Below are positions 21,436-57,485 of a stretch of DNA of 64,000 nucleotides, in pieces. The stretch is taken from the NCBI RefSeq assembly GCF_000737325.1, contig NZ_CP011125.1, forward strand, positions 1,922,001 through 1,986,000. The letters are read 5' to 3'. The position numbers were made by a program, and so were the translations under genes. How positions within the stretch are numbered: the first letter of the stretch is position 1; each line of letters starts with the position of its first letter. The notes under the pieces were generated by a model. It searched no databases, had not been told where the DNA came from, and saw only the letters and a program-made list of their open reading frames with translations. This DNA comes from Sandaracinus amylolyticus. GTDB taxonomy: Bacteria; Myxococcota_A; Polyangia; Polyangiales; Sandaracinaceae.

Positions 21436-22056
21436 CGGAGTCCGGGTCGGGGTCCGGGGCCGGACCCGGGCGGGGGCGGGAGCGGATCCGGTTCGGGAGC
21501 GGGACCGGGTCGGGGAGTGGGACCGGCTCGCGGACCGGGCGCGGCGGTCTCGGCCCCCGGCCGCCGCTCGAGATCGCAAGCGGGTTGGGGCCCGCGCGCA
21601 GCTCGGGGGTGCGGGGGGCGGCGCACCGGCCATCGTTCTCCCGCGGCCCGCCGCTCGAGTCGCAAGCGGGTGGGGACCCGCGCGCAGCTCGGGGGTGCGG
21701 GGGGCGGCGCACCGGCCATCGTGCTCGCCACGCGGCCCGCCGCTCGAGATCGCAAGCGGGTTGGGGACCCGCGCGCAGCTCGGGGGCACGGGGGGCGCGC
21801 AGCCCCCCGGAAAAACAGCCGCGTCCGTACCATCCAGCCGTCGGTCTCGAAAGAACCCCTGAAGCCTCTTAGGTGGGCGCCGGTATCGACCGCTTCAGGC
21901 TCCCCGGTGACGTTTGCCGGGTCTGCTCACCACGATCGAGAGTGGCTCCCGAGGATCAAAGGTCGTACGGGATTCTTATCGTTTGACCTTGCTCGAACCA
22001 GACAGAGGGACGCGTGAGCCAAGACTGAACGTGCGTCCCAGGTGGGTCAAGCGCGA
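21436..22056. other. 621-base convergent intergenic region: G-rich repeats, then a lower-GC structured block
   Basis: After the direct repeats, 21830-22050 has visibly lower GC than its surroundings. It contains three inverted-repeat pairs: CCTGAAGC 21858-21865 with GCTTCAGG 21892-21899; AAGGTC 21959-21964 with GACCTT 21985-21990; and GGGACGC 22007-22013 with GCGTCCC 22033-22039. No ORF of family type is present. A small RNA or terminator cluster is possible. I could not match it to 6S, tmRNA, SRP or RNase P RNA. Confidence 0.55.
21561..21800. repeat. three tandem 87-89-bp direct repeats
   Basis: Copies begin at 21561, 21648 and 21737, each opening CCGCCGCTCGAG and continuing with AAGCGGGTTGGGG-like and CGCGCGCAGCTCGGGGG blocks. 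Copies 1 and 2 are nearly identical. Copy 3 diverges after the GCTCGGGGG block into a GGGGGG/CCCCCC hairpin (about 21790-21812). G-runs on the plus strand and preceding GGGxxCGGG tracts (21440-21540) make the region prone to G-quadruplex formation. Confidence 0.9.
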
Positions 22057-43937: not shown

Positions 43938-44948
43938 ATGCGCTCTCTGACGCTCTCGATGGCGTTCTTCGCGCTGATGAAGCTCTGTGGATCGAGTGAA
44001 CAACCCACGCCGCCCGTTGGAGCAGCCGCCACGGGCGCGCTGACGGTGACCGCGCAGCACGGCGGAGTGATGGTCGCTGCGAGCGACGACGCCTGGATCG
44101 AGCTGGTCACGAAGCAGGACGGACAAGTCGAGGCCTACGTCGTCGACGCGACCGGCGCGCCGCTGCCGCACGAGCAGGCGCAGGTGACGACGGTGCAGGT
44201 GCAGGGCAGCGATGGCCGCCCGCACGACGTCGCGCTCGCGTGGGACGAAGGGCAGCGCCGGTACGCGGGCCGCGTCGAGGTGACGCCGGTCGCCGCGCCC
44301 GCCGAGGTGCAGCTCGTGGTGCGCGGTCAGCCGCGTCGCGCGCGCGCGCCGCAGGTCGTGCTCGTGCCGCCGACGCCGCCGAGCGCGACGGTCGTCGTCG
44401 GCGCGCCGCAGCCGCCGCGCGCGACCGTGGTGGTCGAGCGCCCGCAGGCCCCGCAGGCGACCGTGGTGGTGCAGCCGCCGCAGCCGCCGAGCGCGACCGT
44501 GGTGGTGCAGCCGCCGCAGCCGCCGCACGCGACCGTCGTGGTGCAGGCGCCCGAGCCGCCGCGCGCGAGCGTGGTGGTGCAGGCGCCGGAGCCGCCGCGC
44601 GCTGCGATCGTCGTGGAGCGCCCGCGCGCGAGCGCGCAGGTCGTCGTGACGCCGCCGACCGCGCCGCGTGCGACGGTCGTGGTCGCCCCGCCGCCGCCGC
44701 CGGTGGTGGTCGCGCCGCCGCGTCCGGGCGTGATCGTGGTCGAGGGTGACGGTCATCCCGGCCGTGGTCGCGGTCACGCGTACGGTCGCCGCGGTCGCGA
44801 GGCCGAGGCGAGCGTCGTGGTCTCGCCTCCCCGTCCTGGCGCGGTGATCGTGGCGCCGCCGAGCCCCGGCCGCGTGTCGGTGAGCGCTGGCGTCGAAGTG
44901 CGCGGCGGCGGTGGTGGCGGTGGTCGCGGCCGCGGCCGCGGTCACTGA
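43938..44948 (+). CDS. exported Pro/Val-repeat protein
   Basis: The 336-residue product has a short signal-like start (LTLSMAFFALMKLCGSS). A beta-rich region covers about 35-130 (GALTVTAQHGGVMVAASDDA, VEAYVVDATGAPLPHEQAQV). Then come roughly a dozen units of P-P-x-x-P-P-x-A-T-V-V-V-Q, covering about 138-240. A Gly/Arg/His-rich tail (HPGRGRGHAYGRRG, GGGGGGGRGRGRGH) ends it. The Pro/Val units would form an extended wall- or membrane-spanning rod. The basic Gly-Arg tail may bind nucleic acid or polysaccharide. Function unknown. ATG 43938 follows AAGGAGG. The terminator upstream shows it has its own promoter. Confidence 0.75.
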   Translation: MRSLTLSMAFFALMKLCGSSEQPTPPVGAAATGALTVTAQHGGVMVAASDDAWIELVTKQDGQVEAYVVDATGAPLPHEQAQVTTVQVQGSDGRPHDVALAWDEGQRRYAGRVEVTPVAAPAEVQLVVRGQPRRARAPQVVLVPPTPPSATVVVGAPQPPRATVVVERPQAPQATVVVQPPQPPSATVVVQPPQPPHATVVVQAPEPPRASVVVQAPEPPRAAIVVERPRASAQVVVTPPTAPRATVVVAPPPPPVVVAPPRPGVIVVEGDGHPGRGRGHAYGRRGREAEASVVVSPPRPGAVIVAPPSPGRVSVSAGVEVRGGGGGGGRGRGRGH

Positions 44949-44977
44949 TCGACGCCCAGGGAACTGAGCACCCCACA

Positions 44978-45024
44978 CGAAGGCGCGGGAACGGAGCATG
45001 TTCTGCTCCGGGCCTGCGCCTTCG
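44978..45024. terminator. two-part hairpin between repeat protein and lipoprotein genes
   Basis: The outer stem CGAAGGCGC (44978-44986) pairs with GCGCCTTCG (45016-45024). The inner stem CGGAGCA (44992-44998) pairs with TGCTCCG (45004-45010). The internal loop is GGGAA/GGCCT. It lies 30 bases after the stop of the repeat protein. It lacks T residues, so it may terminate, protect the 3' end, or act as a leader of the next operon. Confidence 0.6.
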
Positions 45025-45087
45025 GCGTTCCGTCCCCAGTTTCAGCGCGGATCGTGTGCGGCACGGGCGCTGCTCTGGCGCCCCCAC

Positions 45088-45663
45088 ATGCGTGCTCGTG
45101 CGCTCCTCCTCGCGATGCTCCTCGCCGGCTGTGACGGCGTCGTCCTCGGTGGTGCGGCCGGTCCGACCGCCAGCGCGCCGAGCGATCCAGGCCCGGGCGA
45201 TCCGAGCGAGCCCGGCGAGCCGACGATCCCCGACGATCCCTTCGCGCTCGATCGCGAGACGCCGCGACTCCTGCCGTTCGAGACGCGCCTCGCACGCGTC
45301 GCGGCGGTCGCGGGCATCGAGACCGGCGATCCCTTGCTCGCGCCGATGCGCGATCAGGCGGTCGCGCTCGGCGGCTACGATCACTCGCGCGGCATCCTCC
45401 CGGACTCCTCGTGGAACGCGACGCGCATCGCGGGCTGGGTGCGCGCGCTGCGGCCGGTCTGCCAGTCGGACGCGATGCGCACGCGCTATCCGGCGTTGCC
45501 GGGCGCGGATCTCGACGCGCTGATCCAGGCGGCGTGGGGACGCGCCGCGACGGCCGAGGATCGCAGCGAGATCGAGAGCGCGGTCGCGGGGCTGCCCGAG
45601 GACGCGGCGCGCGAGAGCGCGTGTCTCGCGGTGCTCTCGGCGGGCGAGGCGGTGCTCCAGTGA
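45088..45663 (+). CDS. lipoprotein of unknown function (first gene of secreted trio)
   Basis: The 191-residue product has signal RARALLLAMLLAGCDGVVLG (lipobox LAGC) and a Pro/Asp/Gly linker. A helical domain with two Cys follows (VRALRPVCQSDAMRTRYPAL, ARESACLAVLSAGEAVL). No heme motif and no known family are visible. ATG 45088 gives the correct signal; a longer reading from 44998 begins inside the hairpin. The next gene starts at GTG 45660 inside its last codons, so the two are translated together, and a third gene is coupled after that. It may be an accessory of the mono-heme lipoprotein. Confidence 0.78.
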   Translation: MRARALLLAMLLAGCDGVVLGGAAGPTASAPSDPGPGDPSEPGEPTIPDDPFALDRETPRLLPFETRLARVAAVAGIETGDPLLAPMRDQAVALGGYDHSRGILPDSSWNATRIAGWVRALRPVCQSDAMRTRYPALPGADLDALIQAAWGRAATAEDRSEIESAVAGLPEDAARESACLAVLSAGEAVLQ

Positions 45664-46877
45664 AGCGCCTGCTGCTCGCGACGCTGCTCGCCGGATGCAG
45701 CGCGTCGCTCGGTGAGCCCGGCGAGGGCATGACGCACCCGCCGGTCCCGAACGATCCACGCGATCCCGCCGAGCCGAACCAGCCCGAGCCGTTCACGCCG
45801 GAGGAGCGCGAGGTGACGCTCGACGACGTCTCCGCGACGCAGGCCGAGGCGTACCTCGCGCTGATCGCGCCGGTGATGGTCGAGCGCACGCTCTCGGACG
45901 ACGAGCGGAGCGAGATCGCGGCGATGGGCGGCGCGGCGATCCCGAGCGTGATCGCGTCGTGGGCCGAAGAGCCGGGCCTGCCGCGCGCGGCGCGACGGAT
46001 GATCGAGACCGCGCTCGGCGTGAGCGGCGGCGTCGATCCGAGCGGCATCGACTTCGGCGCGCCGGGGCGCATCGTCGAGCACGTCGTGCGCGAGGGCCGT
46101 CCGTGGCCCGAGATCCTCACGAGCACGCAGTGCTTCGACGCGAGCGGCGCGGCCGCCGAGTGCGACACCGGGGCGCCCTACGCGGCCGGTGTGATCACGA
46201 CGCGCGCGTTCATGGCGGCGCGCCAGGGGCGCTTCAACCTCACGCGCGCGGGCACGATCACGCGCACGTTCCTCTGCCGCAACTACCCGCTCGAGGTCGA
46301 GCTCGAGCCGCCGCTCGAGCGCGATCGACTGATGCCGATGTTCCGCGCGCTCACCGCCGAAGAGCAGACGGATCCCGAGGCCGCGATGAGCGGGCTCGCG
46401 AACGGGTTCCACTGCTACGCGTGCCACGGACAGTTCGGCGCGCACGCGCAGCTCTTCGTGCGCTTCGACGTGAGCGGGCGCTGGCGCGAGGACGCGACCG
46501 GCGAGCAGCGCGAGGGCGGCATGCCCGGGGAGTCGTTCGGCGGGCTCATGGCCTCGCACCTCGAGCCGCCGTGGCGCGCGAACGAGACGTCGCAGATGGT
46601 CGGGCGCGAGGTCGCGAACCTCTCCGAGGCGATGGCCGCGCTCACCGAGAGCGACGCGTTCTGGGAGTGCGCGTCACAGCGCGTGCTCGAGGCCGCGCTC
46701 GATCTCGATCCCGACCGCGGCGTCGAGGCCGAGCTGCTCGTCGACATCGCCGATGCGGCGCGCGCGCGCGCTGCGAGCCCCACGTTCATCGACCTCGTCG
46801 TCGCCGCGCTCGCGCATCCGCGCGTCGCGTACGCGGTCGCCCGTCAGCTCTCGTCGTCGCCCTCGGAGGCCCCGTGA
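45660..46877 (+). CDS. mono-heme lipoprotein (second gene of secreted trio)
   Basis: The 405-residue product has signal KRLLLATLLAGCSASLG (lipobox LAGC), a Pro/Asp-rich linker, and a domain containing one c-type heme site CYACH (GFHCYACHGQFGAHAQLFVR). The region before (ITRTFLCRNYPLEVELEPPL) and after (GMPGESFGGLMASHLEPPW) recalls, in order and spacing, the DUF1588/DUF1585-type cytochromes that pair with Tat-exported DUF1501 or DUF1552 proteins in planctomycetes and myxobacteria. I could not place it in a named family with certainty. GTG 45660 overlaps the previous gene. It is coupled at its 3' end to the DUF1501-like gene. Confidence 0.82.
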   Translation: MKRLLLATLLAGCSASLGEPGEGMTHPPVPNDPRDPAEPNQPEPFTPEEREVTLDDVSATQAEAYLALIAPVMVERTLSDDERSEIAAMGGAAIPSVIASWAEEPGLPRAARRMIETALGVSGGVDPSGIDFGAPGRIVEHVVREGRPWPEILTSTQCFDASGAAAECDTGAPYAAGVITTRAFMAARQGRFNLTRAGTITRTFLCRNYPLEVELEPPLERDRLMPMFRALTAEEQTDPEAAMSGLANGFHCYACHGQFGAHAQLFVRFDVSGRWREDATGEQREGGMPGESFGGLMASHLEPPWRANETSQMVGREVANLSEAMAALTESDAFWECASQRVLEAALDLDPDRGVEAELLVDIADAARARAASPTFIDLVVAALAHPRVAYAVARQLSSSPSEAP

Positions 46878-48436
46878 AGAAGCTCTACGAGATCGAGCGC
46901 ATGAGCGCGGTGCAGCGGCGCTCGTTCCTGAAGCTCCTCGGCGTCGCGCTCGCCGCGCCCGCCGTGCCCAGCGCGCTGCGCTTCGCCGCGAACGAGATGG
47001 TCGGCGGCACCGCGTACGCGCAGGATCGCGAGATGGAGACGATCTTCATCGAGATCGATCTCCGTGATCAGTGGGACCAGATGCACGTGATGGTGCCGCC
47101 GGGGATCGCGACGCACTCGAACGTGGTGCGCGGCGAGACCGGCGACGGCATCACGATGTTCGCGCAGCAGAGCGAGATCCGTCGCACCGCGAGCGGCGTG
47201 TACCTCACCGCCGACTCGTACGAGCTCGAGCCTCACCTCGACACGATCGCGCAGATCGATCACTGCGAGGCCTCGAGCGGCGCGATCCACGGGCACGAAG
47301 CGGGCAACGCGATCCGCTCGCCCGGTCGCGCGGAAGAACGGCTCGCCGGCACGATGGCGATGTTCGAGAACGATCCCGCGACGGGCGACGGCGGGAACAT
47401 GCGCTGGTACGCGAGCGTCCCGACGCCCGCGTCGCTGCACAACCACTGGGCGAAGCTCACCGATCCGTCGCTGCGCAACGGCGTCGCGTTCAAGGGCCTC
47501 TCGCGCTCGAACCACACCGTCTTCCACTTCGGCGCGGGGCTGCCGGGCGCGGAGCTCGATCGCATCCGCTCGCGCTCGCAGCTCTTCGATGCGTTCCCCG
47601 CGTTCGTCGAGGACCTCAACGTGGTGCCGACCCCCGAGCAGGCCGACGCGCTGCGTGCGGTGCTCGGGCGCCTCGATCAGCGCTTCCTGTCGCGCCGCGG
47701 GTTCGTCGACAGCGTGCGCACCGGGCACGCGCAGCAGATCGACGAGGCGCGCGAGATCCTCCACGTGCGCGAGCCGCGCGTGCTCTCGCTGCCGCTCACC
47801 GACGAAGAGCGCGCGTTCTGGAGCGAGGGCGTGCCCAACCAGATGTGCACCGAGGCCGACACCGAGAGCTTCGAGTGCCCCGACGATCGCGTGAAGGCGC
47901 ACATCTGGGAGCAGACCGCGTACGCGTTCAAGCTCGTGAACGCGGGCGTGACGCGCACCGTCGCGCTCGAGTTCGACTACATGGATCTGCACGGCTTCCG
48001 CCCCGAGCTCTCGGTGCGCACGCAGGCGAAGCAGATCTCGAAGCCGCTCGCGCGCCTGATCACGAAGCTCAAGGAGGCAGGCCTCTACGAGCGCACGGTG
48101 ATCGCGGTGTACACGCTCGACGGCAGCCGCAGCCCGAAGGCCGCGAGCTACGGCAACGACGGCAAGAACACGCTGATCCTCGCGGGCGGGAAGATCCGCG
48201 GCGGCTACTGGGGCGACATCCGCCTGACGAACGAGAGCGGGCGCAACGGGTTCACCTATCACCCGCCGGATGCCGAGACCGGCGCGCCGACCGGCTCCTT
48301 CCGCGGCACCGACGGACGCCTCGACAGCGCGCGCGTGTGGCGGACCGTGATGCGCGCGGCGGGCGTGCCCGACGCGATGTGCGACGAGCACGCGCAGGTG
48401 CAGGGCAAGACGCCGCTCGGCTTCGTGCTGCGCTGA
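46874..48436 (+). CDS. Tat-exported DUF1501-like protein (third gene of secreted trio)
   Basis: The 520-residue product has a Tat signal (AVQRRSFLKLLGVALAAPAV). The body resembles DUF1501/alkaline-phosphatase-like proteins, with TIFIEIDLRDQWDQMHVMVP, IDHCEASSGAIHGHEAGNAI, KGLSRSNHTVFHFGAGLPGA and a C-terminal block with TVIAVYTLDGSRSPKAASYG and RGGYWGDIRL. Family members lie beside c-type cytochromes, and their chemistry is not established. GTG 46874 overlaps the preceding stop (GTGA). A strong hairpin follows. With the two lipoproteins it forms a tight secreted module that may act on an extracellular substrate, passing electrons through the heme. Confidence 0.83.
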   Translation: MKKLYEIERMSAVQRRSFLKLLGVALAAPAVPSALRFAANEMVGGTAYAQDREMETIFIEIDLRDQWDQMHVMVPPGIATHSNVVRGETGDGITMFAQQSEIRRTASGVYLTADSYELEPHLDTIAQIDHCEASSGAIHGHEAGNAIRSPGRAEERLAGTMAMFENDPATGDGGNMRWYASVPTPASLHNHWAKLTDPSLRNGVAFKGLSRSNHTVFHFGAGLPGAELDRIRSRSQLFDAFPAFVEDLNVVPTPEQADALRAVLGRLDQRFLSRRGFVDSVRTGHAQQIDEAREILHVREPRVLSLPLTDEERAFWSEGVPNQMCTEADTESFECPDDRVKAHIWEQTAYAFKLVNAGVTRTVALEFDYMDLHGFRPELSVRTQAKQISKPLARLITKLKEAGLYERTVIAVYTLDGSRSPKAASYGNDGKNTLILAGGKIRGGYWGDIRLTNESGRNGFTYHPPDAETGAPTGSFRGTDGRLDSARVWRTVMRAAGVPDAMCDEHAQVQGKTPLGFVLR

Positions 48437-48444
48437 ACGAGGGT

Positions 48445-48467
48445 GCGCCCGCGCGGGTCGCGGGCGC
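48445..48467. terminator. 9-bp GC hairpin shared by two convergent genes
   Basis: GCGCCCGCG (48445-48453) and CGCGGGCGC (48459-48467) pair perfectly around CGGGT, between the DUF1501-like stop and the TetR stop. It probably serves both strands. Confidence 0.65.
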
Positions 48468-48470
48468 CGA

Positions 48471-49193
48471 TCAGCGGCGGCTGGTCGAGCCGCTCGTGCC
48501 GGTCGTCGGGGTCACGCGGCGATGTTTGCCCGACGACTTCTTCGCGCGCGGCGAGGGCTGCGCGTGATCGGGATGGAGCGGCAGCGCGGGCGTGCGCTCG
48601 TCGCCGTCGGTGAGCGTCGCCGACACGATGCGGAGCAGCACCGCCTTGCGCCGCGCGATGTCGTGCTCGTTGATCGTGCGATCGAACGGCAGCGTGTCGG
48701 CGACGCGCTCCGCGGCCGCCATGAACGCCTCGAAGATCAGCGGGTCGACCTGCGGCCGTCCACCGACGACCATCTCGTGCTGCCACTGATCGCGCAGCGT
48801 CTTCATGACGACCTCGCGATGACGCACGAGATGGCTGTGCGGGCTGCGCGTCTCCATGTCGAGCACGCGCCCGAGGCGACCGAGCCCGGCGCGCCACCGC
48901 AGGTACGCCTCGATGACCGCGGCGAGACGCGCCATGCCGCCCTCGGCGCTGACGAGCGCGTGGTGCATGCGCTCGAGCGCGTCCGCGTGATGCATCGCGG
49001 AGAGCGTCTCGAACACGTCGTCCTTGCTCTCGAAGAGCTTGTAGAACGTCGGGCGAGACACGCCGGACTCCTGGAGGATGTCCTCCACGCGCGTGTTCGC
49101 ATAACCGAGCGCGCCGAACGCGGTCGCTGCGCCAATTAGGATCTTGTCGCGGAATTCCACTGGAACTGGTTTATCAGGGGATGGCGTTGACAC
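48471..49193 (-). CDS. TetR-family transcriptional regulator
   Basis: The 240-residue product has an N-terminal TetR helix-turn-helix at about 14-60: KILIGAATAFGALGYANTRV, EDILQESGVSRPTFYKLFES and KDDVFETL. The C-terminal ligand domain includes LERMHHALVSAEGGMARLAA and HLVRHREVVMKTLRDQWQHE. A basic Ser/Thr tail (HAQPSPRAKKSSGKHRRV) of about 35 residues exceeds the family norm. GTG 49193 is the start; the codons overlap the -35 box of the divergent promoter. It is divergent from the Cys-rich repeat lipoprotein, and a 7-bp palindrome in the shared region is the likely operator. Confidence 0.93.
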   Translation of the reverse strand: MSTPSPDKPVPVEFRDKILIGAATAFGALGYANTRVEDILQESGVSRPTFYKLFESKDDVFETLSAMHHADALERMHHALVSAEGGMARLAAVIEAYLRWRAGLGRLGRVLDMETRSPHSHLVRHREVVMKTLRDQWQHEMVVGGRPQVDPLIFEAFMAAAERVADTLPFDRTINEHDIARRKAVLLRIVSATLTDGDERTPALPLHPDHAQPSPRAKKSSGKHRRVTPTTGTSGSTSRR

Positions 49194-49219
49194 GTATGTT
49201 CGCGCATCGATAATGCGCG
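49187..49219 (+). promoter_or_regulatory. promoter TTGACA-N16-GATAAT with overlapping CGCGCAT-N5-ATGCGCG operator
   Basis: A near-consensus sigma-70 promoter: TTGACA 49187-49192, 16-base spacer, GATAAT 49209-49214. The inverted repeat CGCGCAT (49201-49207) and ATGCGCG (49213-49219) straddles the -10 box. It points toward the Cys-rich lipoprotein, 170 bases ahead of its start, and overlaps the TetR start codon on the other strand. Repressor binding would block the promoter and probably TetR itself. Confidence 0.75.
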
Positions 49220-49386
49220 TGTTAACTCACGCTGTCTTGTCTTCTGGCGGAGTGCTCGTCCCGCAGGTCCCGGACGGCAGCGCGCGAAGCGCGCGGACGG
49301 TAGGGAACGGCGGGCGAGCCGTAACTCTCACGGTTTCTTGGCTCATGCGCTCCGGCTGGGGAAGCCGGAAGAACAGGGGATGGGTG

Positions 49387-51693
49387 ATGGCGCGCACCAT
49401 GCGACGGCCTTCGGCCGAGCGTTGCACGTGGTGGCTCGCGGGACTCGTCGCGGCCTCTCTCGTCGGCTGCGGTGACGACGACGGCGGTGGCTCGCCCGAC
49501 GCGAGCATGCCGTTCGACGCGGGCCCAGGAGATGCGGGGGTCGATGCGGGCTTCGCGTGCCCGAACGCGATGCCGCCTCCGATCGATCCGGAGCTGCTCC
49601 CGGTGTGCATGCTGGAGGGCTGCGTCGACGCCCACTGCGTGCCCAACAGCTTCGTGTCCGAGGAGCAGGCGGCGCTGCTCGGCAACTGCGACGAGGGCAG
49701 CAAGTGCGTGCCCGATCCGTTCATCGAGACGAGCGGCGAGTTCCTGCTCGCGACGTGCCGCTCGGTCGGCGGCGCGGAAGGTCGCTGCGTGTCGCGCTGC
49801 ATCCCGCAGATCGCGGACCAGGCGGAGATGCTGCCGGAAGAGGGCTGCCAGGCGGGCGAGGAGTGCGCGCCCTGCTTCGATCCGCGCACCGGCGAGAGCA
49901 CCGGCGTGTGCAACCTCGGCTGCGATCCCGGCCCGCAGGAGCCGCCGAACATGTTCATGGAGTGCTGCGGCGGCGCGGGCTCGTGCGTGCCCACGGATCT
50001 CGTGCCCGAGGCGCAGCGCGAGCAGCTCGGCGTCGACACGTGCACCGAGGAGAACACGCTCTGCGCGCCGAGCGCGCTGATCGATCCTGCGTCGCGGCCC
50101 GATCGCTGCGACTCGATCGCGGGCGTGGAGGGACGCTGTCTGCCCGCGTGTCTGCCGGCGATCGGCGCGCAGGCGGATCGTCTGTCGCAGGGCTCGTGCG
50201 ACGCGGGTGAGCTCTGCGCGCCGTGCTTCGACCCGACGAACGGCGAGGACACGGGCGCGTGCCGGCTCAACGGCGACGAGCCCGAAGATCCGCCGACCAC
50301 GTTCGATCGCTGCTGCGGCGGCATCGGCGCGTGCGTGCCCTCGGCGCTGGTGCCCGAGGCGCAGCGCTCGCAGCTCGGCACCGACACCTGCGAGGACGAG
50401 GGGCTGCTCTGCGCGCCCGACGCGCTGATCGCGGGCGCGGAGCCGACGTCGTGCCGATCGCTCGGCGATGCCGAGGGACGCTGTCTGCCGTCGTGCCTCC
50501 CGTCGATCGCCGCGCAGGCCGATCGACTGCCGCAGAGCACGTGCACCGAGGCGCATCTGTGCGCGCCTTGTTACGACCCGATCAGCGGTGAGGACACGGG
50601 CGCGTGCCGGCTCAACGGCGACATGCCGGACGAGCCCGCCAACACGTTCGATCGCTGCTGCGGCGGCATCGGCGCGTGCGTGCCGTCGACGTTGGTGCCG
50701 GAGGCGCAACGCTCGCAGCTCGGCACGGACACCTGCACCGAGACCGGTGCGCTCTGCGCGCCCGATGCGCTGATCGCGGGCAGCGAGCCGACGACGTGCC
50801 GCTCGATCGACGACTCGGAAGGGCGCTGTCTGCCGGCGTGTCTGCCGGCGATCGGCGCGCAGGCGGATCGCCTGTCGCAGGGCACGTGCGGTGCGGGGCA
50901 CCTGTGCGCGCCGTGCTTCGATCCGATCAGCGGCGCGGACACCGGCGCGTGCCGGCTCAACGGGGACATGCCGGACGAGCCCGCGTACACGTTCCCGAAC
51001 TGCTGCGGTGGCCTCGGCTCGTGCGTGCCGCCCGACCTCGTGTCGCCTGCGCAGCGCGGTCAGCTCGACTCCACGGGCTGCACGGCGCCGCGCCTCTGCG
51101 CGCCCGACGACTTCACGGATCCGACGTTCCGCCCGATGACGTGCGACTCGGTCGCCGGCGCGGAGGGACGTTGTCTGCCGAGCTGCCTGCCGGCGGTGAG
51201 CAGCCAGGGAGATCGACTCCCGCAGTCGACGTGCCCCGCGACCCATCGCTGCGCGCCCTGCTTCGACCCGATCACGGGCGCGGAGAGCGGCGCGTGCCGA
51301 GTGAACGGCGACATGCCGAGCCGCCCGGCGTACACGTTCCCGACGTGCTGCGCTCACGCGACTGCGGGGGCGCGCGGCCGCTGCGTTCCGCCGGCGCTCG
51401 TGCCCGAGGATCGTCGCAGCTCGCTGCCGGCGGACACGTGCACGGGGGACACGAACCTGTGCGTGCCGAACCCGTTCCTCGCGGACCCGAACCACTCGTT
51501 CGGGTCGTGCACGACGCAGCCGATGGGGCTGGGCATCTTCTTCCCGCCCGCCCCCGGCGCGTGTGTCCCCGACTGCTTGCTCGAAGCGGGCGTGGAGCGC
51601 GACTCGTATGGCCAATCGACGTGCGCGGTGGGCGAGCGGTGCGCGCCGTGCATCAACCCGATCACGCGTGAGTCCACCGGCGCGTGTGACTGA
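49387..51693 (+). CDS. large Cys-rich lipoprotein with about six 115-residue repeats
   Basis: The 768-residue product has a lipoprotein signal (WWLAGLVAASLVGCGDDDGG), a DAG-type linker, then tandem repeats of about 115 residues. Each repeat reads roughly CCGGIGACVPSALVPEAQR, TDTC-LLCAPDALI, CRSLGDAEGRCLPSCLPSI, ADRLPQSTC-LCAPCYDPISG and EDTGACRLNGDMPDEP. There are about 10-14 Cys per unit, giving more than 70 in total, likely all in disulfides. No known family was recognised. Near-identical units in the middle imply recent expansion. The protein should be outer-membrane-anchored and rigid. ATG 49387 gives the signal. The 5' region 49220-49386 has no gene and holds the leader of the TetR-controlled promoter. 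Confidence 0.85.
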   Translation: MARTMRRPSAERCTWWLAGLVAASLVGCGDDDGGGSPDASMPFDAGPGDAGVDAGFACPNAMPPPIDPELLPVCMLEGCVDAHCVPNSFVSEEQAALLGNCDEGSKCVPDPFIETSGEFLLATCRSVGGAEGRCVSRCIPQIADQAEMLPEEGCQAGEECAPCFDPRTGESTGVCNLGCDPGPQEPPNMFMECCGGAGSCVPTDLVPEAQREQLGVDTCTEENTLCAPSALIDPASRPDRCDSIAGVEGRCLPACLPAIGAQADRLSQGSCDAGELCAPCFDPTNGEDTGACRLNGDEPEDPPTTFDRCCGGIGACVPSALVPEAQRSQLGTDTCEDEGLLCAPDALIAGAEPTSCRSLGDAEGRCLPSCLPSIAAQADRLPQSTCTEAHLCAPCYDPISGEDTGACRLNGDMPDEPANTFDRCCGGIGACVPSTLVPEAQRSQLGTDTCTETGALCAPDALIAGSEPTTCRSIDDSEGRCLPACLPAIGAQADRLSQGTCGAGHLCAPCFDPISGADTGACRLNGDMPDEPAYTFPNCCGGLGSCVPPDLVSPAQRGQLDSTGCTAPRLCAPDDFTDPTFRPMTCDSVAGAEGRCLPSCLPAVSSQGDRLPQSTCPATHRCAPCFDPITGAESGACRVNGDMPSRPAYTFPTCCAHATAGARGRCVPPALVPEDRRSSLPADTCTGDTNLCVPNPFLADPNHSFGSCTTQPMGLGIFFPPAPGACVPDCLLEAGVERDSYGQSTCAVGERCAPCINPITRESTGACD
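49963..51345 (+). repeat. four complete 345-348-bp repeats in the Cys-rich lipoprotein gene
   Basis: The TGCTGCGG (Cys-Cys-Gly) landmark lies at 49963, 50311, 50656 and 51001, with TGCTGCGC at 51346. The spacings are 348, 345, 345 and 345. A more diverged unit precedes (from about 49600) and a partial one follows to 51690. The units at 50311 and 50656 are very similar at DNA level, apt for recombination between copies. Confidence 0.92.
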
Positions 51694-51715
51694 GCGCGCG
51701 TCATCCCGATGAGCG

Positions 51716-51756
51716 CGAACGCGGCGGCCCATGCACGGGACCGCCGCGTTCGTTTT
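51716..51756 (+). terminator. intrinsic terminator after the Cys-rich lipoprotein gene
   Basis: The 12-bp perfect stem CGAACGCGGCGG (51716-51727) and CCGCCGCGTTCG (51741-51752) contains an inner CCC/GGG pairing in the loop, followed by TTTTC. It lies between two convergent genes and may also serve the minus-strand lipoprotein. Confidence 0.82.
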
Positions 51757-51758
51757 CG

Positions 51759-53522
51759 TCAATCCAGCGCTGCGCGAAGCACGAAGGCCGCACCACCGTC
51801 ACCGAGCGGCTCGACGCTCTGCCCGGCGGCGGCGAAGCGCGCACCGATCAGACCGAACGCGACGACCGCGTCCGCCGCGTGCGTCCAGAAGACGTGGTCC
51901 GGACCCGACGAGCCCAGTGCGCGAGCCCACAGCATCTCGTGCTCGTCGTTCCACTCGCTGACGAAGCCGTCGAAGCTGCCGGTGGACGGCAGGGACACGC
52001 CGCCGATCCGAGGCGAGCCGCTGAAGCCACCTGCCAAGAACACACGGTCTCCTCGGGCGGCGATCGATGCGAGCGCGACGTAGCCTCCCGCGGCCGCGAC
52101 GACTTGCATTCGTGGCGTGTCGCTACCTGGCTCCAGCGTCCAGATCACCGTGTCGTTCGCCTCGGTATCGTCGATCTCCGAGGTGCCTGCCACTCGGATC
52201 GTTCCGTCATCGCCGACATCGATTGCACTCGGCGCGTCGTTCCTTGCTCGACCGGCCTGCCACGCGTCGACGAACTCGCCGTCGAGCCGCCAGAGCGTGA
52301 TCAAGACGTCGCCAGGGCCATCGGCGACGAAAGAACGAGCTCCGATGCGGAGCTCGTTCGAGAACTGCTGAGCCGCGACGACGCTCGTGGACCCGACGTC
52401 GATCGCGCCCGCAGCGTCTCCGATCGAGCTCACGCCGGACAGCCGAAGCGTGTCGAGGTCGAAGCGAGCGATCACGCTTCCCGGCGGGACCGCGATGCCG
52501 TGCACCGTTTGCTCGCTGTGTGCTCGCGCGTTCGCCACCATGCCCGTCCCCGTCGCGAACAGCTGCCATGTCTCGAGACTCCCGGTCAGCTCGATCGGCG
52601 CTGCGCTGGCGCATCCGCTGATCGCCGCGACGAAGTGCGAATCGCCGCTCGGGATGGCGATCGCTTGCCTGGCGATCGTCACGGACGTCGACGTCACCCG
52701 CCCGGCCACGACACAGCGCCCGTCCGACAACGCTGCGACACTGTGTGCTTCCTCGCGAGAGTCACCGCCGATCTGGGCGATCCACGTGATCCCGCCCGTC
52801 GCCGTCATGCGCGCGACGAACACGTCCTGGTCGCCGGAGCTCCTGTGATCGCTGCCGAAGCACCCGCTTCCCGAGAATCGGAACGTTCCGGTGAACGCAC
52901 CGGCAGCGCAGATGGACCCGTCGTCCGCGACGTCCGCCGCAGTCACCGCGGCGTTGCTCGCACCCGCAGCCAGCGGCGTCAGCCACTCGATCACCGGCAG
53001 CTCGACGCACTCGCCGCCCTCGCACGACTCACCCGCCGCGCACGCGTGACCGCAGCTCCCGCAGTGCGCGTCGTCCGTCGCGAGCACGGACTCGCATCCG
53101 TTCTCGTACTCGTCGTCGCAGTCGTCGCTGCCGCTCGCGCACTCCACGATCACGCACTCGCCCGCGCTGCACGCGCGCCGTGTCGAGCCGCTCACGGCCG
53201 CGCACGCGGCGCTCGCCGCGCTCTCGTCGGCGTCGCCATCGCAGTCGTCGTCGACGGCGTTGCACTGCTCGGGCTGCGCGGTGCACGCATCCATCGTCTG
53301 CGGCGTTCCCGCGTCCGGCACGCCCGGAGCGCCCCCGTCGACCGGGATCACGCCGCCGTCCGGGAGCACGCAACCGCCTGCGTCCGCATCGTACGGCGCG
53401 CCCATTGGACACTGGCACCGTCGCGTCTCGTGATTGAACTCGAGCGCGCCGCACTCCACGTCGGGCAGACACGCGCCGAGCAGGCACGCAAGCCCCGACA
53501 CCCACCAAGCTCTCGCTCTCAT
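51759..53522 (-). CDS. lipoprotein with Cys/Asp-rich front and beta-propeller-like body
   Basis: The 587-residue product has signal RARAWWVSGLACLLGAC (lipobox LGAC). An EGF-like Cys pattern follows (CGALEFNHETRRCQCPMGAP), with a Pro/Asp/Gly linker and a segment with N-A-V-D-D-D-C-D-G, the MopE/DUF-type calcium-binding motif of myxobacterial surface proteins. Then comes CESVLATDDAHCGSCGHACA. The last 400 residues contain repeated D-G-x-x-x-V/A-G strands (AADVADDGSICAAGAFTGTF, ALSDGRCVVAGRVTSTSVTI, AARGDRVFLAGGFSGSPRIG), as in SBBP-type beta-propellers. ATG 53522 follows GGAGGGAG. A surface adhesin or ligand-binding role is likely; no enzyme motif. Confidence 0.83.
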   Translation of the reverse strand: MRARAWWVSGLACLLGACLPDVECGALEFNHETRRCQCPMGAPYDADAGGCVLPDGGVIPVDGGAPGVPDAGTPQTMDACTAQPEQCNAVDDDCDGDADESAASAACAAVSGSTRRACSAGECVIVECASGSDDCDDEYENGCESVLATDDAHCGSCGHACAAGESCEGGECVELPVIEWLTPLAAGASNAAVTAADVADDGSICAAGAFTGTFRFSGSGCFGSDHRSSGDQDVFVARMTATGGITWIAQIGGDSREEAHSVAALSDGRCVVAGRVTSTSVTIARQAIAIPSGDSHFVAAISGCASAAPIELTGSLETWQLFATGTGMVANARAHSEQTVHGIAVPPGSVIARFDLDTLRLSGVSSIGDAAGAIDVGSTSVVAAQQFSNELRIGARSFVADGPGDVLITLWRLDGEFVDAWQAGRARNDAPSAIDVGDDGTIRVAGTSEIDDTEANDTVIWTLEPGSDTPRMQVVAAAGGYVALASIAARGDRVFLAGGFSGSPRIGGVSLPSTGSFDGFVSEWNDEHEMLWARALGSSGPDHVFWTHAADAVVAFGLIGARFAAAGQSVEPLGDGGAAFVLRAALD

Positions 53523-53585
53523 GTCGCTCCCTCCGACGCGCCCCATCGCGTCGACCCCGCGCTACGTTGCGTAGCCTAGGAGCGA

Positions 53586-53938
53586 TCAGACCCAGCGCAC
53601 GCGGACCGCGAAGCGACCGATCCTCAGCGGATCATCGGGCGCGTCGCTGCGCAAGAGACCGCAGTGGATGTGCACGTCGCGCGCGCCCGCGAGCCGAAGC
53701 GCGCGTGGACGTGCGTCGCGTCGAGGCGCTCGGCCTCGACCGCGCCGTGACCGAAGTACGGTGACGCGATCGCGCCGAGCTTCGAGACCAGCACGCGCGG
53801 CGACACGAGCCGCAGCAGCATCGAGTCGATGCCTTCGCGTCGGCCCGTGCCTGCAGCGCGCTCGCGCTCGAGACCGGCTCCGACGCCGGCATCTTGCGCA
53901 GCTCGGCCGCGACGATGCGCGAGAACCGCTCAGAGATC
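53586..53938 (-). pseudogene. decayed gene fragment with at least two frameshifts
   Basis: The minus strand shows coding-like sequence in three successive frames. First is ISERFSRIVAAELRKMPASE (about 53938-53860), then REGIDSMLLRLVSPRVLVSK and GAIASPYFGHGAVEAERLDA (to about 53690). Last is RDVHIHCGLLRSDAPDDPLR ending RVRWV at stop 53586. Joined, they read as the C-terminal half of a soluble alpha/beta protein of about 110 visible residues. I do not recognise the family. The 5' end merges into the DUF1993 gene's tail, so the upstream part was lost. Confidence 0.55.
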
Positions 53939-54442
53939 GCGGAGCGGGAGCGCGCCGATGAAGTGACGCTTGCCGACGTCCACGCCGTTGTGGCGCAGGA
54001 TCGCGTACGCGGTCGTCGCGTGGAAGTAGAGGTTCGGCAGCGCCGAGTGATGCAGGTAGTCGGGCGCGCTCAGCGCCTTGCCCGGCATGAACGACAGCGG
54101 GACGATGCGCTGCTCCGCGCCCTCGAAGTCGGCGGGCGTGAACGACGCGACGTACTCGCGGACCACCCGGATGCGCGCGCGGATCTCGTCCCACGTCTGC
54201 TCGGTGTCGGGGTGCTTCGGCGGGTCCTTCCCCGCGACGCGCGCCGCCGCGAACTTCCCGTGATCACACGTCGCCTGGAGCTGCTTCAGCAGCGGGAACT
54301 GATCGGGCGCGAGGCGCGCGGCGAGCAGCACTGCGGGGTCGAACGACTTCTTGCTCGCGTGCTCGTGCGCGAGGTCGATCCACGTCTCGACGTTCGTGAG
54401 CAGCTTCGTGATCGGCGGGACGATCTGGGAATGAAGCGACAT
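53930..54442 (-). CDS. DUF1993 family protein
   Basis: The 170-residue protein matches the DUF1993 pattern: SLHSQIVPPITKLLTNVETW at the start, then LLAARLAPDQFPLLKQLQAT, DTEQTWDEIRARIRVVREYV and the end HHSALPNLYFHATTAYAILR plus HNGVDVGKRHFIG. The fold is a DinB-like four-helix bundle, but the three metal-binding His of DinB are only partly present. Function unknown; members are common in proteobacteria and fungi. ATG 54442 is unambiguous. It is divergent from the methyltransferase gene, with 80 bases between starts. Confidence 0.92.
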   Translation of the reverse strand: MSLHSQIVPPITKLLTNVETWIDLAHEHASKKSFDPAVLLAARLAPDQFPLLKQLQATCDHGKFAAARVAGKDPPKHPDTEQTWDEIRARIRVVREYVASFTPADFEGAEQRIVPLSFMPGKALSAPDYLHHSALPNLYFHATTAYAILRHNGVDVGKRHFIGALPLRDL

Positions 54443-54522
54443 GCGGTCTCCTCCGGTTCGAGCAGCGGGGCCTGTTGCCGGCGGACGGCAGCGTCAAGCG
54501 TCGCCGCGCGGTAGAGGAGAGC

Positions 54523-55203
54523 ATGGCGTTCGACGTCTCGCGCCGTTCTTTCCTCACGCGGCACGACCTCCATCTCTTCACGGGCGAGACGCTCTTCGAT
54601 CGCATCGCGCGCGTGCTCTGCGAGGCCGAGTGCTTGCCGCGGAAGGAGCTCTACGAGTCGTGGGAGGTCGCGCGCCGCGTGCGCCGTCGCTTCCGGGGAG
54701 GGCGCGTCGTCGATCTCGCGTGCGGGCACGGGCTCGTCGCGCAGCTGATGATGCTGCTCGACGACTCGTCGCCGTGCGCGCTCGCGATCGATCGACGCCT
54801 GCCTCCGAGCGCGTCGTTCGTGGCCGCCGCGATCAGGCGCGCGTGGCCGCGCCTCGAGGGACGCGTGACGCTCGAGGAGCGCGCGATCGACGACGTCGCG
54901 ATCGAGGAGGACGACGTCGTCGTCGCGGCGCACGCCTGCGGTGCGCTGACCGACGTCGTGCTCACGCGCGCGATCGCGGCACGAGCGCGCGTAGCGGTGC
55001 TCCCGTGCTGTCACGACGTCGGTCGCAACGATCGCGGCGGGCTCGAGGGATGGCTCGACCCCGCGCTCGCGATCGACGTCACGCGCGCCGCGCGGCTGCG
55101 CGCGAGCGGCTACGACGTGCGGACGCAGACGATCCCGGCGGACGTCACGCCGAAGAACCGCCTGCTGATCGGCGCCCCGTCTCGCATCGACGAAAGTCGA
55201 TGA
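54523..55203 (+). CDS. class I SAM-dependent methyltransferase
   Basis: The 226-residue product has motif I VVDLACGHGLVAQLMML, with the acidic residue after the second strand in ALAIDRRLPP. The HACGALTDVVL and LPCCHDVGRNDRGG blocks resemble the (H-x-C-G-x-L-T/S ... P-C-C-H/Y) motif of the METTL25/RRNAD1 or Trm13-like methyltransferases. Those act on rRNA, tRNA or small molecules; the target here is unknown. ATG 54523 has a GGAG five bases ahead; the reading from 54475 adds a non-conserved stretch. It is a single gene between DUF1993 (divergent) and the antiporter. Confidence 0.86.
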   Translation: MAFDVSRRSFLTRHDLHLFTGETLFDRIARVLCEAECLPRKELYESWEVARRVRRRFRGGRVVDLACGHGLVAQLMMLLDDSSPCALAIDRRLPPSASFVAAAIRRAWPRLEGRVTLEERAIDDVAIEEDDVVVAAHACGALTDVVLTRAIAARARVAVLPCCHDVGRNDRGGLEGWLDPALAIDVTRAARLRASGYDVRTQTIPADVTPKNRLLIGAPSRIDESR

Positions 55204-55341
55204 GGCGCGCGTCATCGTCCATCGGCAGTGCACGAAGGTGCCGCGAAATCGGCGGCAACGCGCGCTAGGCTGCTCGCTCCGGTGCGGCGGTGCATCGGCA
55301 GAGCGCGATGGGCGCGCTCGGGGACCGCGAGGGCACGATCG

Positions 55342-56781
55342 ATGAGCTCGACGCGCAGGACGCTGCTCGGACCGCTGAACGCGGGCCGCACGCTGTTCGG
55401 CTACGCCGCGATGATCGCGATCACGATCGCGCTCTTCTTCGTCATCCGCGCACAGGGCGCGACGCTGGTCGCGCCGCCGGCGCCCGAAGGCGCGACGGGG
55501 CACGCGGCAGCCGCTGGGCACGCGTCGGATCTCGCGCATCTGCTGCTCGCGATCGCGGTCGTGGTGATCGTCGCGCGCCTCACGGGCGCGGCGTTCGAGC
55601 GCTGGCTGAAGCAGCCCGCGGTGATGGGCGAGATCGTCGCAGGCCTGGTGCTCGGCCCGTCGGTGCTCGGCGCGATCGCGCCCGACGTCCAGGCGTTCTT
55701 GCTGCCCGCGGCCGTCGCGCCGTCGCTCGGCGTCGTCGCGAAGATCGGCGTCGTGCTCTTCATGTTCCTCGTCGGCCTCGAGCTCGACCCGAAGCTCCTG
55801 CGCGGCTCGTCGCACGCGACGCTCGCGATCTCGCACGCGAGCATCATCGCGCCGTTCCTCCTCGGCGCGACGCTCGCGCTCGCGGTCTATCCGATCTACT
55901 CGCATGCCGGCATCGACTTCACGGTGTTCGCGCTCTTCTTCGGCGTCTCGATGTCGGTCACCGCGTTCCCGGTGCTCGCGCGGATCCTCACCGATCGACG
56001 CATGCAGAGCAGCGCGCTCGGTGTCACCGCGCTCGCATGCGCCGCCGTCGACGACGCGAGCGCGTGGTGCTTGCTCGCGTTCGTGTCGGGCGTCGCGACG
56101 GCGGAGCTCGATGGCGCCTGGCTCACGATCGGCCTCGTCGTCGCGTACGTCGCGTTCGTGCTGCTCGCGGTGCGTCCGCTCGCGCGCTGGCTCGCGGCGC
56201 GCGAGGAGCGCTCGAACGATCCGGTCTCGATCACGACGCTCGCGATCGTGCTCGGGATGCTGCTCCTCTCGGCGGCCGCGACCGAGGCCATCGGCATCCA
56301 CGCGCTCTTCGGCGCGTTCCTCTTCGGCGTCGTGATCCCGCACGACGGTCGCCTCGCCGAGCAGGTCCGCGCGCGCCTCGAGGACGTCGTCGGTGTCCTG
56401 CTCGTACCGATCTTCTTCTCGTTCACCGGGATGCGCACCCAGATCGGGCTCGTCTCCGGCGCGACCGACTGGCTGATCTGCGCTGTGATCATCCTGGTCG
56501 CGACGCTCGGGAAGTTCGGCGGCACGCTCGTCGCGGCGCGCTTCGCGGGGCTCGGATGGCGCGACGCGAGCGCGCTCGGGATCCTGATGAACACGCGCGG
56601 CCTGATGGAGCTCATCGTGCTCAACGTCGGGCTCGACATGGGCGTGCTCTCGCCGACGCTCTTCGCGATGCTCGTGCTGATGGCGCTCGTCACGACGTTC
56701 GCGACGACGCCGGTGCTCGCGCTGATCACGCGGCTCGGTCGTGCGCCCGCGGAGACGATGGCTGCCGAGCGGACGCCGTGA
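55342..56781 (+). CDS. CPA2-type sodium or potassium/proton antiporter
   Basis: The 479-residue membrane protein has about 12-13 helices. Family signatures are present: QPAVMGEIVAGLVLGPSVLG in the first core, LFMFLVGLELDPKLLRGSS, FGVSMSVTAFPVLARILTD, VTALACAAVDDASAWCLLAF with the D-D pair of the ion site, and GILMNTRGLMELIVLNVGLD near the end. These are typical of KefB/GerN/NapA-like monovalent cation:proton antiporters. An N-terminal extension of about 45 residues adds one helix. No Trk-A/RCK domain follows. ATG 55342 is the best start. It is presumably active in pH or Na+/K+ homeostasis; the ion cannot be fixed. Confidence 0.93.
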   Translation: MSSTRRTLLGPLNAGRTLFGYAAMIAITIALFFVIRAQGATLVAPPAPEGATGHAAAAGHASDLAHLLLAIAVVVIVARLTGAAFERWLKQPAVMGEIVAGLVLGPSVLGAIAPDVQAFLLPAAVAPSLGVVAKIGVVLFMFLVGLELDPKLLRGSSHATLAISHASIIAPFLLGATLALAVYPIYSHAGIDFTVFALFFGVSMSVTAFPVLARILTDRRMQSSALGVTALACAAVDDASAWCLLAFVSGVATAELDGAWLTIGLVVAYVAFVLLAVRPLARWLAAREERSNDPVSITTLAIVLGMLLLSAAATEAIGIHALFGAFLFGVVIPHDGRLAEQVRARLEDVVGVLLVPIFFSFTGMRTQIGLVSGATDWLICAVIILVATLGKFGGTLVAARFAGLGWRDASALGILMNTRGLMELIVLNVGLDMGVLSPTLFAMLVLMALVTTFATTPVLALITRLGRAPAETMAAERTP

Positions 56782-56828
56782 TCGCCACGGACTTGCGCCC
56801 GAGCGCGACGCCCGGCGACAGTCGCTGC

Positions 56829-57485
56829 GTGAGTCGGATCTCGGGCGTTCTCTGCCTCGTCGTCGCGTGTCACGCGTGCAGCCTCGACTTCGACGCGCTC
56901 CGGCGCGGGCGTGCGGACGCGGGCGACGGCATGGACGCGAGCTCGCTCGACGCGTCGACGAGCGACGCGAGCCGCGACGACGCCGGCGAGAGCGACGCGA
57001 GCGAGCCCGAGGACGCCGCGTCCCTCTGTCCGACCACGCCGCCCGACTGTGCCGACCCGCGCTGCGCCGGTCAGGCGTGCGACGACGGACTTCGCTGCAC
57101 GTCGAACGACGTGTGCAGCACCGGGCTCTGTCGCGGCACGCCGGTCGAGTGTCCGACGGACGGATGCAGCGTCGCGACGTGCGAAGAGGACACCGGCGAG
57201 TGCCGCGCGATCCGCACCATGCCCGACGCGACGATCTGCGTCGGCGGTCGCTGCTGCTTCGGTCGTTGCTCGATGCTGCGCGACAGCGGGAGCTGCGGCG
57301 GCTGCGGGCTCTCGTGCGAAGAAGAGACGTGCTCCGCCGAGCTCCCGCCGCGCTGCACGTGCGTGACGAACGCCGGCTGCCCGCTGGGTCAGCAGTGCCT
57401 CGGAGGCCGCTGCGCGTGCATGACGAACGCGCAGTGCGCGACGGGACAGACCTGCGTCGTCGCGAGCGGGCACTGCACGTACTGA
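56829..57485 (+). CDS. Cys-rich lipoprotein
   Basis: The 218-residue product has signal SRISGVLCLVVACHACSLDF (Cys in ACSL or VAC as lipobox) and an Asp/Ser/Ala linker with D-A-S repeats. About 24 Cys follow in a pattern like D-x-C-S-T-G-x-C (SNDVCSTGLCRGTPVECPT, CCFGRCSMLRDSGSCGGCGL). The end NAGCPLGQQCLGGRCACMTN has two short EGF-like units. Such proteins are surface-bound in myxobacteria, with no known enzyme role. GTG 56829 is used; there is no ATG before the signal. It may be co-transcribed with the TPR gene nine bases downstream. Confidence 0.8.
   Translation: MSRISGVLCLVVACHACSLDFDALRRGRADAGDGMDASSLDASTSDASRDDAGESDASEPEDAASLCPTTPPDCADPRCAGQACDDGLRCTSNDVCSTGLCRGTPVECPTDGCSVATCEEDTGECRAIRTMPDATICVGGRCCFGRCSMLRDSGSCGGCGLSCEEETCSAELPPRCTCVTNAGCPLGQQCLGGRCACMTNAQCATGQTCVVASGHCTY

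Follow-up and report, generated by a model that had tools for sequence, protein, structure and literature searches.

At one locus of Sandaracinus amylolyticus, a gene for a cysteine-rich repeat lipoprotein stands back to back with a gene for a TetR-family regulator. What is the lipoprotein for, and does its neighbor control it? Here we report the gene structure and its conservation, the repeat anatomy, the family and its range, and the FadL neighborhood found in relatives, starting from a window of 64 kb of this genome. The explanation we prefer, tentatively and at slightly less than an even chance, is that the protein is a disulfide-clamped lipoprotein rod of the outer membrane that works with FadL-type channels and is expressed under TetR control.

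The lipoprotein and its units

The gene encodes a signal peptide and six units of 115–130 aa:

49387–51693 (including the stop), + strand: Cys-rich repeat lipoprotein, 768 aa, 76 Cys, ATG at 49387
49387–49467, + strand: lipoprotein signal peptide, lipobox SLVG before Cys28 (from the sequence and a regular-expression test of the family)
49552–49911, + strand: unit 1, residues 56–175, 13 Cys
49912–50262, + strand: unit 2, residues 176–292, 13 Cys
50263–50607, + strand: unit 3, residues 293–407, 12 Cys, modelled
50608–50952, + strand: unit 4, residues 408–522, 12 Cys, modelled
50953–51297, + strand: unit 5, residues 523–637, 12 Cys
51298–51687, + strand: unit 6 (terminal), residues 638–767, 12 Cys, interspecies divergence far above that of the other units

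The original prediction of six units of about 115 residues with more than 70 cysteines agrees with this count; its word "giant" is generous for a mature lipoprotein of 741 residues. SLVG-C28 fits the lipobox pattern of bacterial lipoproteins. A strict lipobox is present in 58 of the 91 family proteins; that it was missed in the other 33 is partly due to boxes that are relaxed or to starts that are wrong. Comparison with the orthologue of the sister species (G353) gives, as far as unit 5, a dN of 0.035 and a dS of 0.244, and units 1–5 are 89–97% identical. In unit 6, 48 of 114 aligned residues differ, plus 29 gap columns.

Cysteine pairing and fold

The mature Sandaracinus protein has 75 cysteines, one lipidated and 74 others. 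The count of non-lipid cysteines is even in 53 of the 58 family proteins with a strict lipobox, and the cysteine columns are almost invariant across 176 units. To judge from these sequences, all cysteines other than the lipidated one look paired. Cys78 is missing from 19 of 145 non-redundant units, all 19 of which also lack Cys18, and none of the 145 has Cys18 without Cys78. This joint loss suggests a Cys18–Cys78 bond and, together with the even cysteine number, favors structural disulfides over free thiols or metal sites.

On sequence and model grounds, each unit is built from two duplicated copies of a small knot of predicted disulfides. Half B of the unit aligns with half A in hhalign (probability 76.7, E 2e-5), and the AlphaFold model of units 3 and 4 (pLDDT 90.3) repeats its secondary structure within the unit. 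Neither the two-unit model nor half B has a significant structural match by Foldseek or VIA-align, and the two-unit model has none in a viral structure library, an absence that does not prove a new fold. The only look-alikes of the half unit in the PDB are arthropod clip domains, with a TM of 0.45–0.50 to both PAP2 clip domains at non-significant E values of 4.1 and 6.5. With VIA-align, the two-unit model reaches a Z of 2.0 at best against 2xxl (43 residues, rmsd 3.1), and the half unit finds no clip domain. By sequence, there is no CLIP match among 54 half units in Pfam, and none by profile among PDB sequences.

Clip-domain disulfides join C1 to C5, C2 to C4 and C3 to C6. Half B has six core cysteines, but the residue with which its C3 (Cys78) co-varies is Cys18 in half A, not C6. 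The likeness to the arthropod domains (PDB 2ikd, 2ike, 2xxl) lies in a weak, non-significant fold resemblance of the half unit and in the six core cysteines of half B. What differs, besides the want of a sequence match, is the putative Cys18–Cys78 bond, which would link both halves, and that no protease is attached.

Range and gene neighbors

Neither Pfam nor NCBIfam nor the PDB sequences contain the family, whether the whole protein, a 28-row two-unit alignment or a 54-row half-unit alignment is the query, and the original view that it belongs to no known family stands. In Pfam, the whole protein has nothing beyond one 10-bit chance match, the 28 two-unit members have no match at E 0.1, and the EGF or TIL type of domain that might have accounted for the repeat does not appear. 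Nor does Pfam find a PA14 or other ligand-binding domain in the lipoprotein, and in NCBIfam no family, TIGR04201 (the TraA Cys repeat) included, matches at E up to 1. A literature search, in which subscription papers were thinly covered, found no description of the family or of its pairing with FadL.

Relatives were found only in Myxococcota, where 66 of the 317 genomes from the class have the family; a first search of genome contigs with the single protein as query had found none. The family is missing from G589, a genome placed in the same genus and 96% complete, and from most of the class, and hence is accessory. The 91 family proteins carry from 2 to 7 units.

Next to 24 of the 91 family genes lies a gene for a FadL-type outer-membrane channel (11 of 49 genes in a first set, 13 of 44 in a second). 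Overall, FadL accounts for 24 of 169 adjacent genes against 1 of 587 others, with a profile that was trained on 6 of its matches and with Fisher values that treat related genomes as independent. No other neighbor cluster of the relatives recurs across more than two families. When six of these neighbors were compared with PF03349, four scored above the Pfam cut-off, one below it, and one had no match; matches to PF03349 are few, at 3–14 per genome in eight genomes. The remaining 67 of the 91 family genes, some of them at contig ends, have no FadL neighbor. Neither Sandaracinus nor the sister species has a FadL gene beside the lipoprotein gene. In Sandaracinus the neighbors are the TetR gene and one convergent gene, the four matches to PF03349 are at other places of the genome, and the FadL step is accordingly drawn from the relatives, whose neighborhood points to transport or ligand handling. 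Since the FadL/TodX-type channel is the commonest partner gene, capping or extending such a channel would be the lipoprotein's most likely job.

The protein could instead be a stiff stalk on the surface, used in adhesion or recognition in the manner of the Cys-rich repeats of TraA and presenting its outermost unit, the FadL neighbors being coincidental or relevant to some members only. The variable unit 6 beyond five conserved units would fit such a stalk, as would the range of unit numbers, and a rigid stalk is what has been proposed for the TraA repeats (PMC3325183). TraA of Myxococcus xanthus is also an exported myxobacterial protein with tandem Cys-rich repeats and an envelope partner encoded alongside. 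The Sandaracinus protein differs in that it matches neither TIGR04201 nor PA14 nor any other family, and in having a lipobox in place of MYXO-CTERM and a unit of about 115 aa with 12–13 Cys. That Pfam shows no ligand-binding domain and NCBIfam no TIGR04201 repeat counts against a stalk; moreover, members with two units are too short for a long one, and the FadL link was replicated in a second set. We regard a stalk as unlikely.

Promoter, candidate operators and the TetR gene

The second question, that of control, turns on the region between the two genes:

48471–49160, - strand: TetR-family regulator, 229 aa, probable GTG start at 49160, TetR_N in Pfam, indel in G353
49187–49214, + strand: predicted sigma-70-type promoter TTGACA-16-GATAAT for the lipoprotein gene, a consensus match, identical in G353
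49201–49219, no strand: candidate operator A, palindrome CGCGCAT-N5-ATGCGCG over the -10 box, conserved in G353
49215–49232, no strand: candidate operator B, imperfect palindrome GCGCGTGTTAACTCACGC immediately 3′ of the -10 box, 83% complementary, conserved in G353
49238–49321, + strand: 84-bp insertion within the 5′ UTR, a single copy of a palindromic repeat that is dispersed and specific to the genus, absent here in G353
49375–49379, + strand: ribosome-binding sequence AGGGG, 7 nt ahead of the ATG, read from the sequence

The near-consensus promoter of the original prediction is borne out: 11 of 12 positions agree with the sigma-70 consensus, and the match is the single one within 44500–57000 (0.2 expected from shuffles). 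The 10.3 Mb genome has a single TTGACA-N16-18-KATAAT, where a first-order Markov estimate expects 0.03. The palindrome said to cover the -10 box does so; as a motif, it is no rarer than chance. The genome has it 3 times against 2.3 expected, and palindromes with 7-bp arms are frequent (178 in the window), for which reason operator A stays a candidate. As a mark of a TetR regulon the motif was rejected on the same count, the other two copies lying inside or over genes. What speaks for function is a block of 53 bp (49185–49237, counted by eye on the alignment) that is identical in the sister species while its flanks have diverged. A terminator-like match at 49217–49232 was set aside because of its place in the start region of the promoter, and may correspond to operator B.

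In the alignment, the sister species lacks the 84-bp insertion at the corresponding place. The repeat has 76 matches across the genome. Its hairpin (-49 kcal/mol, z -1.48) does not fold clearly better than shuffles, and being an inserted repeat it was dismissed as a regulatory RNA. Rfam at gathering thresholds finds no riboswitch or known RNA in the 5′ UTR, its sole match being a 6S RNA elsewhere. A RAYT transposase as the mover of the repeat was also rejected, as neither the Sandaracinus nor the sister genome has a Y1_Tnp.

The divergent gene is, as foreseen, that of a TetR-family regulator (TetR_N at 39.9 bits, Pfam cut-off 24). Because of a 1-bp indel, GTG 49193 is not in frame in the sister species, so the start is probably GTG 49160; both orthologues read from VEFRDK onward. 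The arrangement shares with divergent TetR-family repressors the TetR_N domain, the divergent gene and a promoter with inverted repeats, to which TetR binding is here predicted. It differs in the C-terminal ligand domain, which fits no described equivalog above cut-off in NCBIfam.

Adjacency could also come without a regulatory link, the promoter being constitutive and the TetR targets lying elsewhere. The chance-level palindrome agrees with this, as do the TetR_N matches elsewhere in a genome that has at least 45 and the relatives, most of which have no TetR neighbor. Against it, the divergent genes share an intergenic region in which the 53 bp stayed identical despite an insertion right alongside. 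In addition, TetR is weakly enriched beside family genes (6 of 169 adjacent genes against 5 of 587 others, p 0.019, a Fisher value that takes related genomes as independent, from a profile trained on 3 of its 6 matches), and two relatives (L173 and L178) have the order TetR, lipoprotein, FadL. We think the unlinked reading doubtful, and the lipoprotein promoter probably switchable.

The toxin-binding armour of the original prediction, or one that binds metals or absorbs oxidants, would suit a cysteine-rich protein behind a strong, probably inducible promoter, but we consider it very improbable: nothing found supports it, the even cysteine number and the paired loss of Cys18 and Cys78 speak for structural disulfides, and on our reading of the clusters the recurrent neighbors give no hint of resistance genes, the only widely recurrent one being the FadL-type channel.

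A proposed mechanism and its significance

In the explanation we prefer, the product of 49387–51693 would be a rod-shaped lipoprotein of the outer membrane. Each of its six units would contain a pair of related disulfide knots, and the whole would be held by what may be 37 disulfides. TetR likely binds the inverted repeats in the -10 and start regions of the predicted strong promoter and would repress it until a ligand is present. The lipoprotein most likely caps or extends a FadL/TodX-type channel, and would help to capture or hand over a hydrophobic ligand.

There is a possible parallel in Bacteroidota, where the FadL homologue BamG and the surface-exposed lipoprotein BamH are both parts of the BAM complex (PMC12578637). 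The likeness lies in a FadL homologue and a lipoprotein, paired here by gene neighborhood in relatives. BamH is a different protein, a complex of the myxobacterial pair is hypothetical, and the Sandaracinus lipoprotein has no adjacent FadL gene.

A bolder and rather improbable view is that of a myxobacterial invention, in which a double clip-like knot, repeated 2–7 times on a lipid anchor, would cap FadL-type channels outside the cell or stand on them as a rod. It would form a regulated outer-membrane system for hydrophobic ligands, and its clip-like fold would give bacteria an equivalent of one that is otherwise known from immune proteases of arthropods.

In sum, roughly one in five of the genomes sampled from the class carries this uncatalogued family, for which there are now a confident model, a disulfide plan that can be tested and a gene partner that was replicated. 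Sandaracinus, with a single gene, a single promoter and a single adjoining regulator, is a simple test bed for it. If the partnership is true, it would reveal the way in which one Gram-negative group other than Bacteroidota couples FadL-type barrels to surface lipoproteins.

Lipoprotein and its Units

The elements discussed here are as follows.

21823-22011, minus strand, 6S RNA (scoring 48.8 bits, with the gathering score at 46.4), an observation apart from the locus
45660-48433, two genes transcribed towards the TetR gene
48471-49160, minus strand, TetR gene (probable start at 49160)
49187-49214, promoter TTGACA-16-GATAAT
49238-49321, 84-bp insert between promoter and start codon, with no counterpart at the site in the sister species G353
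49387-51693, plus strand, Cys-rich lipoprotein gene
51298-51687, plus strand, its last unit (unit 6)

Read from the ATG at 49387, which has AGGGG 7 nt before it, the protein is 768 residues long and has the lipobox SLVG-C28. The original prediction of a six-unit protein with more than 70 Cys was borne out by a count of six units and 76 Cys in the whole protein, as was its description as belonging to no known family: searches against Pfam, NCBIfam and PDB sequences returned no match. With relatives counted at E up to 1e-3 (a few of them marginal), the family is found in 29 of the 377 genomes that sample the phylum and in 66 of 317 genomes in the class. When a large named collection was scanned with two peptide patterns only, 23 loci emerged, and every one of their titles refers to Myxococcales, Polyangiaceae, Kofleriaceae, Labilithrix or delta-proteobacteria. 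The 91 non-redundant proteins have two (34), three (43), four (3), five (5), six (4) or seven (2) units. One member (L056, 8788-11457, minus strand; an 890-residue open frame) has its units after a long N-terminal region that, by eye, reads like a possible beta-propeller, and three relatives' loci (L185, L188, L201) carry tandem pairs of family lipoprotein genes with overlapping or touching ends.

The species used for comparison, G353, is assigned to the same genus. Through the end of unit 5, dN is 0.035 and dS 0.244, which reads as a clear signature of purifying selection on that part. Identities are 107/120, 113/117, 111/115, 108/115 and 112/115 for units 1-5, respectively, and 66/114 plus 29 gap columns for unit 6; variation of the last unit between the two species is thus far above that of the others. 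Within the protein, units 2-5 are 57-78% identical pairwise. The outer tip looks as if it has undergone diversifying change or recombination. Such a variable last unit favors the main rival to a channel-associated role, namely that the lipoprotein is a rigid stalk after the manner of TraA (PMC3325183).

Cysteines and Fold

In an alignment of 176 units, counting duplicate loci, Cys 50, 64, 74, 94, 100 and 103 are invariant and Cys 17, 24 and 43 almost invariant. Of 145 non-redundant units, 19 have no Cys78 and all 19 also lack Cys18, and none of the 145 has Cys18 without Cys78; since the losses coincide, the two are probably bonded. By analogy within the unit halves, we infer the disulfides 17-50, 24-43, 64-100, 74-94, 18-78 and 103-115, with an extra one likely joining the leading Cys of units 1 and 2. 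This pairing accounts for 74 Cys plus the lipidated one, which matches the count. A strict lipobox is present in 58 proteins, and the even Cys number of 53 of them further supports full pairing in the family, the relatives not being independent.

Profiles of the two halves of the unit, A and B, align with each other (probability 76.7, E 2e-5), and in the model of units 3-4 (pLDDT 90.3, pTM 0.77) the predicted order of strands and helices occurs twice per unit. This two-unit model had no significant match in PDB and none in the viral library; among its weak PDB rows are the clip protease Grass and PAP2 clip domain 1, clip domains being an arthropod fold. Half B modeled alone (pLDDT 93.7) gave two rows in all against PDB, both PAP2 clip domains (TM 0.46/0.45 and 0.50/0.50, E 4.1 and 6.5), and no Z of 2 or above by VIA. 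That clip domains are the only rows for this half is suggestive of a clip-like fold; the scores are not.

Promoter, Regulator and the 84-bp Repeat

The product of the divergent gene passes the Pfam cut-off for TetR_N and reaches no NCBIfam equivalog above the model's own cut-off. A reading from the GTG at 49193 is not conserved because G353 has a 1-bp indel between that codon and the body of the protein. The GTG at 49160 starts the reading of both orthologues (VEFRDK), so the -35 box probably lies outside the TetR coding sequence. The promoter was originally called strong and near-consensus, and this holds: it matches 11 of 12 consensus positions, is the one occurrence of TTGACA-N16-18-KATAAT (0.03 expected) in the single-contig genome of 10,327,335 bases (the window being 1922001-1986000), and lies within 53 bp (49185-49237) identical in G353, as counted by eye on the alignment. 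A promoter at this site is well supported. Two overlapping inverted repeats at the promoter are candidate operators; a site for the predicted TetR binding is plausible there from sequence. The palindrome at the -10 box alone is unremarkable (three in the genome, 2.3 expected).

The insert folds into a long hairpin and is one copy of a dispersed palindromic repeat with at least 76 matches in the genome (from scoring 40 out of 351 candidate sites) and at least 65 in G353 (40 out of 438); three other genera of the family have scraps only. Since G353 keeps the promoter without it, the insert appears dispensable for regulation. Outside the window copy, the genome holds the repeat at about 75 further sites (loci L064-L068, L101-L130), as single copies or head-to-tail arrays of up to six. 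In 22 of the 32 arrays inspected, the core GGAGTGCTCG starts 9-12 nt past the opening base of the upstream gene's stop codon, in the same direction, and from this spacing the TGA seemingly belongs to the left end of the repeat (TGAGTCCTTGCCGGAGTGCTCG). Many copies finish with a run of T, resembling a spreading terminator; the window copy is exceptional in sitting in a 5′ UTR. A pattern for the exact core found 72 copies (control, 1). No RAYT gene was found as a mover.

Of the two genes at 45660-48433, one encodes a PSCyt3/DUF1588-like lipoprotein (weak, under the cut-off) and the other a DUF1501 protein. In G353, about 4.3 kb separates the DUF1501-type gene from TetR, a gap that is almost nil in the window; the extra DNA includes a 1294-residue Cys-rich protein (L031, 10305-14186) with internal repeats of its own.

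Neighbors in Relatives

Eleven of 49 non-redundant family genes lie next to members of a single cluster of outer-membrane proteins, the sole neighbor cluster in that set recurring in more than two families; a cluster read as peptidyl-prolyl-isomerase-like was seen at five loci in two families. Six FadL-type neighbors were compared with Pfam: four reach the PF03349 cut-off, one falls short of it and one matches nothing. In a second set of 40 further regions, from other class-search hits, such a neighbor adjoins 13 of 44 genes. Overall, FadL-type genes make up 24 of 169 adjacent genes vs. 1 of 587 others in the same loci, and TetR genes 6 of 169 vs. 5 of 587 (p 0.019), with both profiles partly trained on hits and p-values inflated by relatedness. 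The 21 genomes involved come from seven family codes (f2, f5, f10, f12, f19, f72, f74), eight of the genomes (G345, G542-G548) belonging to one genus. The lipoprotein gene may precede the channel gene, follow it with overlapping ends, or diverge from it; L173 and L178 have the order TetR, lipoprotein, FadL. A gene immediately upstream of the lipoprotein was also noted in L036, L058 and L072, with a Cu2_monoox_C domain (PF03712) in L036.

The weakest link of the FadL reading is that Sandaracinus has no adjacent channel gene. A precedent comes from Bacteroidota, where PMC12578637 describes a FadL homologue paired with a surface lipoprotein (BamG and BamH); in the present family the pairing is by gene neighborhood in relatives. 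In sum, the evidence favors an exported, fully disulfide-bonded lipoprotein rod that commonly works together with a channel of the FadL type and is sometimes controlled by TetR.
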